Assembly (NCBI RefSeq): GCF_039697315.1 | Contig: NZ_CP155619.1 | Span: forward strand, 6,138,001 to 6,202,000 | Length of the DNA: 64,000 nt | Direction of reading: 5' to 3' | From: Pseudomonas abietaniphila | GTDB lineage: Bacteria; Pseudomonadota; Gammaproteobacteria; Pseudomonadales; Pseudomonadaceae | Shown: positions 37,363 to 39,922 of the stretch, piece after piece | How positions within the stretch are numbered: position 1 is the stretch's first letter | Layout: every line of letters starts with the position of its first letter | The notes under the pieces: model-generated | The model's input: the letters and a program-made list of their open reading frames with translations, nothing else | What the model was told of the DNA's origin: nothing | The model's database searches: none | Position numbers and translations under genes: made by a program

Positions 37363-38448
37363 TTACCTGTAGCGCAGTTTATTCACGGCCTCGCGCAGCA
37401 GGTGCTCGGTGCCGTCCCAGCCCAGGCAACCATCCGTCACTGACACGCCGTAGCGCAGCGATTCACTCAGCGGCTGACAGCCTTCGAACAGGTGACTTTC
37501 GAGCATCATGCCGATCAGCGTGTTATCGCCCGCCAGGCGTTGCTGCAACACATCGTTGAAGACCTGAGGCTGGCGCAGCGGGTCCTTGCCACTGTTGGCG
37601 TGGCTGCAATCGACCATGATTCGGGCGGCGATGCGGTTCTTGTCCAGGCTGGCGTTGACCTTGCCCACACTCTGGGCATCGTAGTTAGGCCCGCTGTGGC
37701 CGCCGCGCAACACGATGTGCGTGTCCGGATTGCCCTGGGTCTCGATGATCGCCGGATGACCGTGACGATCGATGCCGAAGTGACGGTGTGCGTGAGCGGC
37801 TGAGCGAATGGCGTCGCAGGCCACAGCAACACCGCCGTCGGTGCCGTTCTTGAAGCCGACCGGCATTTGCAGCCCGCTGGCCATCTCCCGGTGGATCTGC
37901 GATTCAGTGGTGCGCGCTCCGATCGCCACCCAGCTCAACAGGTCGTCGAAGTATCCGGCGGCCATCGGTTGCAGCAACTCGGTCGCAATCGGCAGGCCGA
38001 GTCGAATCATTTCGCGCATCAGGTGACGGGAGAGCGTAAGGCCACCGGCCATGTCATCGCTGCCGTCCAGATGCGGGTCGTAGGCCAGGCCTTTCCAGCC
38101 GACGGTCGTGCGAGGTTTTTCGACATAGGCGCGCATCACCAATAGCATCTGATCACTGACCTCGGTGGCGAGGTGTGCCAGGCGTTCGGCGTATTCGAGT
38201 GCAGATTTTGGATCGTGGATCGAGCACGGACCGACAACGACTAAAAGGCGGGTGTCTTCGCCGTTGAGAATGGCGCGCACGGATCGGCGATGAGCTTCGA
38301 CTTGTGCGATCAATGCAACGTCCAGCGGCAGCTGGTTCTTGAGTGCCAGGGTGCTGGGCAGGCGTTGTGGAGCGGGGTGGCTGTCGATCAAGGTCACAGG
38401 ACGGGACGGCAGGTCGGACAGGCTTTTTGCGACGACGGACGAATTCAT
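37363..38448 (-). CDS. 3-deoxy-7-phosphoheptulonate (DAHP) synthase, class I
   Basis: 361 residues. It condenses PEP with erythrose-4-phosphate, the first step of aromatic amino-acid synthesis. VVVGPCSIHDPKSALEYAERL, MRAYVEKPRTTVGWKGLAYDPHLDGS, GFKNGTDG and IMVDCSHANSGKD are the signature blocks of the AroF/AroG/AroH family and include the metal ligands (Cys, His, Glu, Asp). AGGAAG precedes the start at 38448. Which amino acid inhibits the enzyme is not readable. Upstream lies an attenuator-like leader that may match supply to aromatic amino-acid level. Confidence 0.92.
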   Translation of the reverse strand: MNSSVVAKSLSDLPSRPVTLIDSHPAPQRLPSTLALKNQLPLDVALIAQVEAHRRSVRAILNGEDTRLLVVVGPCSIHDPKSALEYAERLAHLATEVSDQMLLVMRAYVEKPRTTVGWKGLAYDPHLDGSDDMAGGLTLSRHLMREMIRLGLPIATELLQPMAAGYFDDLLSWVAIGARTTESQIHREMASGLQMPVGFKNGTDGGVAVACDAIRSAAHAHRHFGIDRHGHPAIIETQGNPDTHIVLRGGHSGPNYDAQSVGKVNASLDKNRIAARIMVDCSHANSGKDPLRQPQVFNDVLQQRLAGDNTLIGMMLESHLFEGCQPLSESLRYGVSVTDGCLGWDGTEHLLREAVNKLRYR

Positions 38449-38489
38449 GAGTAAGGCTTCCTGGTCGGCGGGCGCTTTCCCGCACGGAC

Positions 38490-38642
38490 CTACTGGGGTG
38501 TTCGACAATTGGCCGTATGGGCTGAATGTGTGGATTTGCCACCTGTCAGTGACCGATCGGAGGCGGCAGGCTGTCCCGAACGGAGGTTGCTAAATCGCCA
38601 TGCAAAGTCGATGTCGTTGCGGTAATAGGTGCTGTAGTTCAT
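38490..38642 (-). CDS. Small aromatic-rich ORF between the attenuator and the DAHP synthase gene
   Basis: 50 codons beginning MNYSTYYRNDIDFAWRF, with six aromatic residues in the first 17. CGAGGA sits 7-8 nt upstream of the ATG. It lies after the leader terminator and ends 41 nt before the DAHP synthase start. It could be a second regulatory uORF or a spurious frame; conservation in relatives would decide. Confidence 0.4.
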   Translation of the reverse strand: MNYSTYYRNDIDFAWRFSNLRSGQPAASDRSLTGGKSTHSAHTANCRTPQ

Positions 38643-38686: not shown

Positions 38687-38726
38687 TAAAAAAACGAAAC
38701 CCCCGGTCGGGAGGCCGACCGGGGGT
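38687..38726 (-). terminator. Attenuator terminator in the DAHP synthase leader
   Basis: A perfect 12-bp stem (ACCCCCGGTCGG with CCGACCGGGGGT, read on the minus strand) with a CCTC loop is followed by TTTCGTTTTTTT. It lies between the leader peptide and the DAHP synthase gene, so it would stop transcription before the structural gene. Confidence 0.9.
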
Positions 38727-38769
38727 AGAGTTATCTCTGGTTGGCGTCCCGTGATTCGTGGGCGCCGTT

Positions 38770-38806
38770 TGGGTATCAGGCGCGCCAGTGGCTAAACCAA
38801 TACCCA
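38770..38806 (-). promoter_or_regulatory. Leader hairpin pairing the aromatic codons with the region just after the leader stop
   Basis: TGGGTAT within the codons for Gly-Tyr-Trp pairs perfectly (7 bp) with ATACCCA just after the TGA of the leader peptide. This is the position expected of the 1:2 hairpin in trp-type attenuators: a ribosome stalled on the Tyr/Trp codons would prevent it. A further dyad, GGCGCCC with GGGACGCC, lies between it and the terminator. A full antiterminator pairing was not obvious by eye. Confidence 0.55.
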
Positions 38807-38919
38807 TAAAAATAAGAAGCAGGCGACGCGATGGTCATTGCATCCCACACAGCCATCTTCGCCACCGGGCGCGAGGCGTCGGCAGGGCGATGAAGCGATG
38901 AAAGGCTGGAAAGCAACAT
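38776..38919 (-). CDS. Leader peptide of the DAHP synthase gene, aromatic-rich
   Basis: 47 codons, ATG at 38917-38919 after GGAG. Residues 35-45 read SYFYGYWFSHW: three Tyr, two Phe and two Trp within 10 residues, just before the stop. Such a run is the mark of a transcription-attenuation leader. Tyr, Phe and Trp codons are all represented, which suits the common first enzyme of the aromatic pathway. Upstream (38920-39060) there is a repeated CAATTGAAT motif, possibly a promoter/operator region. Confidence 0.75.
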   Translation of the reverse strand: MLLSSLSSLHRPADASRPVAKMAVWDAMTIASPASYFYGYWFSHWRA

Positions 38920-39118
38920 GTTCGGTCTCCGTTGAATGACGCCGAGCTTACTTCAGCGGCAGGCGGTTATTCAATTGGAAAATTCAATTGTATCGATTGA
39001 TAACCTGCAGCCTGCTGCGTTGAAGTGGCCATCGCCGCGCGTGGCAGTAGAATGTCCCGACAATCCGCGGGAGCGTCTATCGTCGTGCGCGGATAACGAG
39101 TGATCAGGAGGATCCGCA

Positions 39119-39922
39119 GTGTCCACGAATGAGCAGCACGGCAACGAAGAGGGTCAGCGACAGCGATCAGAGCCTACGGTGTGGGCGGCGGCCCAATCGC
39201 AGTCCGTGGCGGGCGACCTTGCCGCCAACGTTCAGCGCCACTTGCGCTTCATGGAGATCGCCGCGGAGCAGGGTGTCGGGTTCCTGTTGTTTCCGGAGCT
39301 GTCGTTGACTGGCTACGAACCGGCGATGGCCAGCGACCTTGCCGTCACCGGACTGGACTCGCGGCTGCAGCCGTTAAAAGACATGGCCCAAGCGTTGAAA
39401 ATGGTCACCGTGGTTGGAGCGCCATTGCTCGGCGGGACGCGAGGTGACGTCCGGATCGCGGCGCTCACCTTCGGCCTGGGTGGCGAAGTGAGCGTTTACA
39501 CCAAGCAGCACCTGCACAGCGGGGAAGAGTCGGTATTCAAGGTTGGCGTGGGTGGCGCCCCGGTCGACATTGATGCGGAACACGTTCATCTCGCGGTCTG
39601 TGCGGATTTCAGCCATGCAGATCATGCGCAAAAAGCCGCCACAGCGGGCGCCACGATGTACGCGGCCAGCGTATTGATCTCAGGTCCCGGCTACGTGAAA
39701 GATTCGGACCTGCTCCGAGGTTATGCCAAGACCCACGGGATGCCGGTCTTAATGGCCAATCATGCCGGCGTCACCGGCGGCTGGCAGTCGGCCGGGCGCA
39801 GTGCGTTGTGGGATGAAACCGGGGAGCCGGTCGCAGAGATCGCAGGCGCGGGTGAGGGGTTGCTGGTTGCCACGCGTGGCGGAAGTGGGTGGAGCGCGCG
39901 CACCCTGACTGTTTCTATTTAA
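39119..39922 (+). CDS. Carbon-nitrogen hydrolase (nitrilase superfamily amidase)
   Basis: 267 residues. The Glu-Lys-Cys triad is visible at Glu60 (LLFPELSLTGYEP), Lys129 (YTKQHLHSGEE) and Cys161 (LAVCADFSHADHA). It hydrolyses an amide or nitrile-type C-N bond in a small molecule; the branch within the superfamily is not clear. It starts at GTG with a strong AGGAGGA 8 nt upstream. The GNAT gene follows 13 bp later and may be in the same transcript. Confidence 0.87.
   Translation: MSTNEQHGNEEGQRQRSEPTVWAAAQSQSVAGDLAANVQRHLRFMEIAAEQGVGFLLFPELSLTGYEPAMASDLAVTGLDSRLQPLKDMAQALKMVTVVGAPLLGGTRGDVRIAALTFGLGGEVSVYTKQHLHSGEESVFKVGVGGAPVDIDAEHVHLAVCADFSHADHAQKAATAGATMYAASVLISGPGYVKDSDLLRGYAKTHGMPVLMANHAGVTGGWQSAGRSALWDETGEPVAEIAGAGEGLLVATRGGSGWSARTLTVSI

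Follow-up and report, generated by a model that had tools for sequence, protein, structure and literature searches.

The closest described systems are attenuators of amino acid biosynthesis. In the leader of the enterobacterial his operon, control codons lie before the first of a chain of segments that pair either as AB/CD/EF or as BC/DE; pheL, pheM and trpL of E. coli, like the leader described below, place a peptide with aromatic codons before a gene, each of them serving one amino acid and a branch-specific operon with a simpler set of hairpins. Proteobacterial attenuators are said to have been collected by Vitreschak et al. in 2004, and that collection could contain the present leader. Attenuation at trpL, pheL and pheST of E. 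coli is documented (PMC11802643), and a survey of Shewanella lists aroF and aroH among its predicted regulatory RNAs (PMC2659441). Ribosome-mediated attenuation of a DAHP synthase gene, which is what we propose here, is reported for AroR/aroF of Corynebacterium glutamicum, where the control codons are Phe-Tyr-Phe (PMC11802643, PMC4046766) and the attenuator responds to Phe and not to Tyr (PMC11802643). AroR, which we compared by its description, is actinobacterial, and no second leader is mentioned in the excerpts describing it.

The window, a stretch of 64,000 nucleotides of Pseudomonas abietaniphila DNA, carries on its minus strand a gene that the original prediction had taken for DAHP synthase, an identification borne out by its matches to TIGR00034 (E=1.5e-133) and PF00793 (E=4.8e-79). 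The start of the gene is likely the ATG at 38448, and PA1750 is a candidate orthologue. The features of the locus are listed below.

38945..38974, minus strand: promoter-like pair of the leader, TTGAAT (38974-38969), 18 nt, TAAGCT (38950-38945) (by eye)
38776..38919, minus strand: uORF1, aromatic leader peptide of 47 aa, SD GGAG at 38930-38927 (ORF list and relatives)
38797..38817, minus strand: control codon run SYFYGYW of uORF1 (conserved by position)
38796..38805, minus strand: segment 1, GGGUAUUGGU, whose partners are the post-stop GAUACCC (38777-38771) and GCC (38781-38779) (folding, alignment)
38777..38787, minus strand: segment 2, UGGCGCGCCUG, with segment 3 as alternative partner (folding, alignment)
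38759..38766, minus strand: segment 3, GGCGCCCA (folding, alignment)
38743..38750, minus strand: segment 4, GGGACGCC, partner of segment 3 or, in one of two registers, of the terminator 5' arm (folding, alignment)
38699..38726, minus strand: terminator, made of segment 5 (38726-38715), loop and segment 6 (38710-38699) (terminator scan, folding)
38688..38699, minus strand: T-run of the terminator, TTTCGTTTTTTT (sequence, terminator scan)
38700..38818, minus strand: match to Rfam RF00627, P15 (123.1 bits against a gathering score of 70)
38490..38642, minus strand: uORF2, second leader cistron, Tyr-rich, 50 aa, MNYSTYYRNDIDFAWRF..., SD GAGG at 38654-38651 (ORF list and relatives)
38591..38600, minus strand: UGGCGAUUUA of uORF2, the codons Trp-Arg-Phe and the first base of the next (kept in relatives)
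38538..38583, minus strand: possible H-type pseudoknot, H1 38583-38576/38560-38553 and H2 38567-38562/38543-38538 (alignment of relatives)
38463..38490, minus strand: hairpin H3, spanning the interval between the stop codon of uORF2 and the DAHP synthase SD, AGGAAG at 38462-38457 (folding, gap comparison)
37363..38448, minus strand: gene for a type I DAHP synthase of 361 aa, counted from the ATG at 38448 (ORF list, Pfam/NCBIfam)

The nearest gene-length ORF upstream of the leader (39119-39922, plus strand) is divergent, so the leader hairpin is unlikely to be the terminator of some upstream minus-strand gene. The 600 nt upstream of DAHP synthase contain two aromatic ORFs, scored as at least 5 F/W/Y within 12 residues, and a terminator; among 1000 dinucleotide shuffles of the same stretch an aromatic ORF arose in 35 and a terminator in 4, and neither the combination of the two nor a pair of aromatic ORFs arose in any. 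The promoter-like pair was not called by a consensus promoter scan; TAAGCTC stands at the corresponding site in 13 of the 27 loci displayed, the remaining loci having other hexamers. A near-palindromic CAATTGAATTTTCCAATTG (38972-38990) overlaps the -35 region of this likely promoter, and AATT...ATTGAA stretches resembling it are found in several relatives.

The first leader cistron is as had been proposed, a 47-residue peptide ending in SYFYGYWFSHWRA, with GGAG 7 nt before its ATG. The 7-bp hairpin ascribed to it is also present: GGGUAUU (38805-38799), formed by the Gly-Tyr codons and the first Trp base, pairs with GAUACCC (38777-38771), which begins at the second base of the stop codon, and the full 1:2 hairpin, at -15 kcal/mol, was equalled by 3 of 200 shuffles. 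Lack of conservation of the aromatic codon run or the terminator in close relatives had been set as one refuting observation, and the codons turn out to be kept. We compared loci from Pseudomonadaceae, Halomonadaceae and two further families of the order (f43 and f20), family f36 being called Halomonadaceae from the likeness of its leader peptides to those of Salinicola and Halomonas loci. All 84 loci of the P15 set, one retrieved from each of 84 genomes, contain GYW[F/Y] within an open frame; 19 of 20 orthologue upstream regions from other genera and families have 5 F/W/Y in 14 residues, the exception, L098, failing this rule yet having GYPVGYWF. Among the best 80 of at least 590 homologues of the enzyme, which gave 68 named loci with upstream sequence (Pseudomonas, Stutzerimonas, Halopseudomonas, Chromohalobacter, Salinicola, Halomonas, Cobetia and relatives), 11 outgroups (L185-L195) and one cut-off locus (L181) that was dropped, uORF1 was recognised by the 5-in-12 rule in 67 of the 68 (not in L170), and no aromatic leader ORF was found before the 11 outgroup DAHP synthases. 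These collections share species, and the locus counts are not counts of independent lineages; they comprise 146 distinct uORF1 peptides and 145 distinct uORF2 sequences.

An automatic rule found an ATG and SD-like site for uORF1 in 155 of the 184 pooled loci, the other 29 being the 11 outgroups, the cut-off L181 and 17 more. When the 151 of these 155 peptides that hold G[Y/F]W were aligned on that motif, a choice that fixes G and W, F or Y stood at position -3 in 134 of them, at -2 in 140 and at -1 in 147, and Tyr followed Gly in 150; the later Trp position was filled 82 times by Trp, 35 times by Arg, 14 times by a stop and 12 times by Gly. Aromatic residues are concentrated at the end: the last 18 residues contain on average 2.59 F, 2.38 Y and 1.62 W over the 155 peptides, and the earlier part (mean 24.6 residues) 0.35 F, 0.01 Y and 0.07 W. 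Neither the uORF1 peptide nor that of uORF2 has a Pfam-A or NCBIfam match at E up to 1, and codon-position counts did not reveal a clear excess at third positions, whether in uORF1 or at the N-terminus of uORF2, a lack that fits a leader without thereby proving its translation. In a group of loci of family f20 (L103-L107) the same kind of gene is preceded by an aromatic leader of another sequence, ...VFFWWFGYGFYFSQ..., whose hairpin region is longer; a GCCCCGACTGG terminator was found in L103 and L105-L107, and uORF2 was found in none of the five.

The control codons, which are those for products of the pathway, sit directly before segment 1, and three hairpins follow them, the last being the terminator. 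The perfect 12-bp terminator with a T-run is there as described (ACCCCCGGUCGG/CCGACCGGGGGU, then TTTCGTTTTTTT); at -26 kcal/mol it was equalled by none of 200 shuffles, and among the best 80 of at least 590 homologues our script's rule called a terminator in 61 of the 68 named orthologues and in none of the 11 outgroups. The claim of attenuation by a translating ribosome is supported, the layout being corrected to one of six segments with his-like logic. When prefixes of the leader were folded in the order of their synthesis, two chains of helices emerged, 1:2/3:4/5:6 and, as the alternative, 2:3/4:5, the same logic as in his; the present leader differs from his in having aromatic codons for His codons, DAHP synthase downstream and a second leader cistron after it. 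Of the loci folded, 19 with P15 and those of other families, many show the six-segment pattern, and some prefixes fold differently.

Support for both sets of helices was sought in an alignment of 81 distinct cores, from which L084 and sequences too diverged to align were omitted. The terminating helices are paired in 97.2% of cells, against at most 56.2% in slid controls, with 4 pairs changed on both sides and none of 500 shuffles matching them on all five measures. The antiterminating helices are paired in 92.0% of cells (slid controls at most 53.8%), and UA is replaced by AU at columns 19-50 in 8 sequences; their covariation is mixed, two of five measures failing to beat shuffles (449 of 500 shuffles were as high for pairs changed on both sides and 380 of 500 for further pair types), and sliding the set by +1 to +3 gave 9, 13 and 21 cells changed on both sides, against 8, at far lower pairing. 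A second register of 4:5, that of the window's own fold, is paired in 93.0% of cells with no covariation beyond shuffles, and in the window the 4:5 helix is weak and ambiguous in register (z = -0.27 for the 39-nt fold, 72 of 200 shuffles being as good). In L084 and L098, of another family, the helices can be built from other bases, 2:3 for example from GGCACGCCUG:CAGGGCGUGCC, and by eye GUGCUGCC stands opposite GGCAGCAC or GGCAGUAC as 4:5. An antiterminator formed by AGCCACUGG with the terminator arm was also considered; it is predicted in some sequences, is broken by CACAGG variants, and was rejected.

The effect of ribosome position was modelled through the energy needed to free the 5' arm of the terminator, with segments 2-5 free for a stalled ribosome, 3-5 for one at the stop codon and 1-5 for none, boundaries that are our assumption. 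The mean cost was 6.84 kcal/mol in the stalled state, 2.49 at the stop and 2.26 without a ribosome. It was higher for the stalled ribosome than for the ribosome at the stop in all 81 aligned sequences, by more than 2 kcal in 72 of them, and higher than without a ribosome in 80; since the state without a ribosome exposes still more sequence and yet has the lower energy in these 80, this is not an effect of length. L095, with 5.7, 5.7 and 5.8, does not distinguish the states. Opening energy was substituted for the mean pairing probability of the arm, which did not separate stalled from stop (0.81 and 0.77, with 0.56 for no ribosome). The antiterminator is thus predicted by the model, in 81 of 81 sequences, to exclude the terminator and to be favoured by a stall at the control codons.

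The leader has a catalogue entry. The original prediction had been unsure whether it was known; it is already listed as the Pseudomonas sRNA P15, the match to RF00627 spanning the full length of the model (1-119), and in the open-licence PMC literature we found no account of it as an attenuator. P15 is the same element, of which the Rfam match takes in just the 3' part, typed as a gene; the model omits the 5' part of uORF1, the promoter and uORF2. RF00627 occurs in 84 of the 144 genomes searched, 82 of them among the 89 of the same genus (the window's included) and one each in two other families, and it matches once in the window's genome. Its distribution follows that of the gene: seven Pseudomonas genomes without P15 (G014, G027, G041, G042, G060, G069 and G082) are also without the window-type DAHP synthase, their sole DAHP synthase being a paralogue with 51-54% identity, and none of the eight paralogue upstream regions from the window's genome and these seven contains an aromatic ORF or a terminator. 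The leader therefore tracks the gene, being absent where this DAHP synthase is absent, and the paralogue lacks such a leader. In L079 the gene begins 337 nt past the end of P15; the corresponding distances in the closely related L078 and L080 are 199 and 202 nt, which suggests that the leader of L079 holds an insertion.

We consider it probable, at roughly 0.8, that P15 is the terminated leader of the DAHP synthase mRNA, produced by ribosome-mediated attenuation at uORF1, and that it is not primarily a trans-acting sRNA. The contrary reading, in which P15 acts in trans as Rfam has it and its place before DAHP synthase is incidental, draws on its Rfam typing, on its inclusion among the sRNAs detected by Livny et al. 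2006 (PMC2375449) and on the rise in its level reported upon deletion of hfq in P. fluorescens (PMC5627042). The same transcript is, however, expected from a terminated leader, and P15 tracks the gene, combines a leader ORF whose codons fit the pathway with helices that exclude one another, and has a single match in the window's genome, all of which make a trans-acting role very improbable. Still harder to credit is a riboswitch, which has been suggested in print (in a passage of PMC2527527), since the conserved part is explained by codons, a stop codon and alternating helices; no riboswitch family reached its gathering score, the sole weak match in the leader being to c-di-GMP-II-GCG, at 21.9 bits (E=0.35) where 47.9 would be needed, and overlapping uORF1. 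The excerpts of PMC8297930, PMC2965389, PMC3460626, PMC8545117 and PMC4263517 do not describe this leader, and neither P15 as an attenuator nor uORF2 was found described in the open-licence PMC literature. Attenuation of DAHP synthase has a precedent in AroR; uORF1, under the older sRNA name P15, would be a further case of this known kind, set apart by its tandem arrangement with uORF2.

From this anatomy we infer that the attenuator senses charged tRNA, and in which direction it responds. When charged Tyr- or Phe-tRNA, and possibly Trp-tRNA, is scarce, the ribosome would stall on uORF1 and mask segment 1; 2:3 would then pair, leaving segment 4 free for the 5' arm of the terminator, and the polymerase would read through. 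With charged tRNA at hand, the ribosome would proceed to the uORF1 stop codon and mask segment 2, allowing 3:4 and the terminator to form, and in the absence of translation 1:2, 3:4 and the terminator would all form. A stalled ribosome reaches about 15 nt from its P site. A ribosome stalled at the F/Y codons before Gly, at the Tyr codon or at the first Trp codon would cover segment 1, and a stall at the last F/Y, at Tyr or at the first Trp would spare most of segment 2; the second Trp codon falls inside segment 2. The original prediction had Tyr, Phe and Trp sensed together; these positions make all three possible signals, Tyr and Phe being the best supported candidates. Such a role would give a testable function to an RNA treated since 2006 as an sRNA of obscure role, would put an attenuator at the step through which all aromatic synthesis in a large genus begins, and could make the leader a practical handle for aromatic production in Pseudomonas. 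The pathway also feeds phenazines and quinolone signals in this genus. Its links to phenazine and quinolone are noted in PMC3460626.

Between the terminator and the gene lies uORF2 (38642-38490, MNYSTYYRNDIDFAWRFSNLRSGQPAASDRS...), which was absent from the original prediction. In the P15 set it was recognised, by WRF among the first 45 residues of a peptide, in 83 of 84 loci (not in L083), all 83 carrying TGGCGATTTA. The other collections were searched with the exact DNA motif TGGCGATTT, which added 73 loci with ATG, SD and Tyr codons and brought the total to 156; a peptide check of the 15 remaining loci (L108 apart) then found L162, in which TGGCGCTTTA takes the place of UGGCGAUUUA. The latter is identical in 156 of the 157 loci with a Tyr-containing uORF2. 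No uORF2 was found in 14 loci (L083, L094, L097, L099, L103-L107, L153, L164, L165, L168 and L183), which include the Salinicola ones, where uORF1 stands alone. Tyr is confined almost entirely to the stretch before WRF, making up 574 of 2079 residues there and 2 of 4508 after it over the 156 peptides, of which two contain one Tyr, eight two, 42 three, 91 four and 13 more (range 1-6). A model of the long type of uORF2 has a single match in the window's genome, which was also the sole genome matched among 274 sampled from the class, a sample that includes few close relatives; the short-type uORF2 of G123 and G144 was missed by it. Set aside from these counts is a 39-aa ORF in L108 (family f20, 485-605) with TGGCGATTTA and WRF and no Tyr before WRF, which is either a degenerate uORF2 or due to chance.

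The uORF2 stop codon was located relative to the start of DAHP synthase. In 20 loci outside Pseudomonadaceae (the Halomonadaceae-type loci with L095 and L096; L100 yielded no start) it lies -4 to +7 nt from the ATG in 12, many of them Halomonadaceae, and 17 to 44 nt away in the other 8. Pseudomonadaceae have longer gaps, of 36-50 nt for 127 of the 131 loci measured, a single gap of 229 nt being probably a wrong start. The ends of the long gaps pair with each other: among 105 distinct gaps 25 nt or more in length, 79% have a stem of at least 4 bp (H3 in the window), compared with 19% after shuffling and 59% with halves swapped between loci. Variants of the stem include GGGC:GCCC, GGTC:GACC, GGAC:GTCC and GGGTTG:CAACCC; the comparison left out 18 loci in which no SD was recognised. 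From a stop that abuts the gene start or is bridged to it by H3 we infer translational coupling or occlusion at that start, so that the state of uORF2 translation would set the translation of the enzyme. Coupling to Tyr-dependent translation would be of the wrong sign, a difficulty that disappears if a stall leaves the start of the gene itself free.

That uORF2 has a regulatory role is in our judgement somewhat better than an even chance. A functional small protein, a reading we think improbable, would account for the motif WRFS..RS...A(A/T)S(D/G)R...GG common to Pseudomonas and Halomonadaceae and for the 72 protein matches to uORF2, the named ones of which are hypothetical or uncharacterized; against it, 156 of 157 loci keep the wobble positions of TGGCGATTTA (CGA, TTT), 36 of 156 lack the motif region that follows WRF, the N-terminus lacks a clear third-position excess and Tyr is almost exclusive to the part before WRF. 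Control by a second, Rho-dependent termination is unlikely, if less so: no intrinsic terminator was called in the stretch separating uORF2 from the gene, which looks C-rich, but the placing of the stop at the gene start points to translation. On the whole arrangement, two leader peptides in series before one gene, with the P15 attenuator followed by a translation-acting uORF2 coupled to the DAHP synthase start, we are tentative, at slightly less than even odds; the message that reads through the terminator would, in most lineages examined, next meet this Tyr-codon leader. If the arrangement is real, control of entry into the shikimate pathway would have two stages in Pseudomonadaceae and Halomonadaceae, and uORF2 would belong to a new class of cis-regulatory leaders that work through translation, and could bring to light another mode of control by amino acid supply, placed after the attenuator.

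The 10-nt core of this conserved, unnamed leader fits no coding or pairing constraint that we found. A general pairing partner for UGGCGAUUUA is not supported, the best sites being P15 segment 4 or codons within the gene and these in subsets of loci only; its best helices averaged 7.9, against 7.0 for shuffled 10-mers, downstream, and 8.0 against 7.3 upstream. Programmed frameshifting at this site, ahead of the possible pseudoknot, was set aside, there being by eye no recognised slippery site and no sensible continuation in another frame. Downstream of the core, an H-type pseudoknot is a possible element, optional among loci, that the alignment model suggests: in 83 distinct long-type segments H1 and H2, in pseudoknot order, are paired in 93.0% of cells, with 17 cells changed on both sides and none of 500 shuffles as high; by the count of pairs changed on both sides 69 of 500 shuffles were as high, and pair 21-45 is unpaired in 64 of 83. 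Sliding the helices by one codon (+3) gave a higher covariation score (0.103 against 0.086) at 53% pairing, which indicates that coding periodicity contributes to the signal. The pseudoknot region, which follows WRF, is missing in 36 of 156 uORF2 loci, a figure we obtained by subtracting L108 and the diverged L169 from 38 listed. Near the uORF2 stop codon, CGAACA (Arg-Thr codons; 38499-38504 in the window) recurs in both the long and the short Pseudomonadaceae forms.
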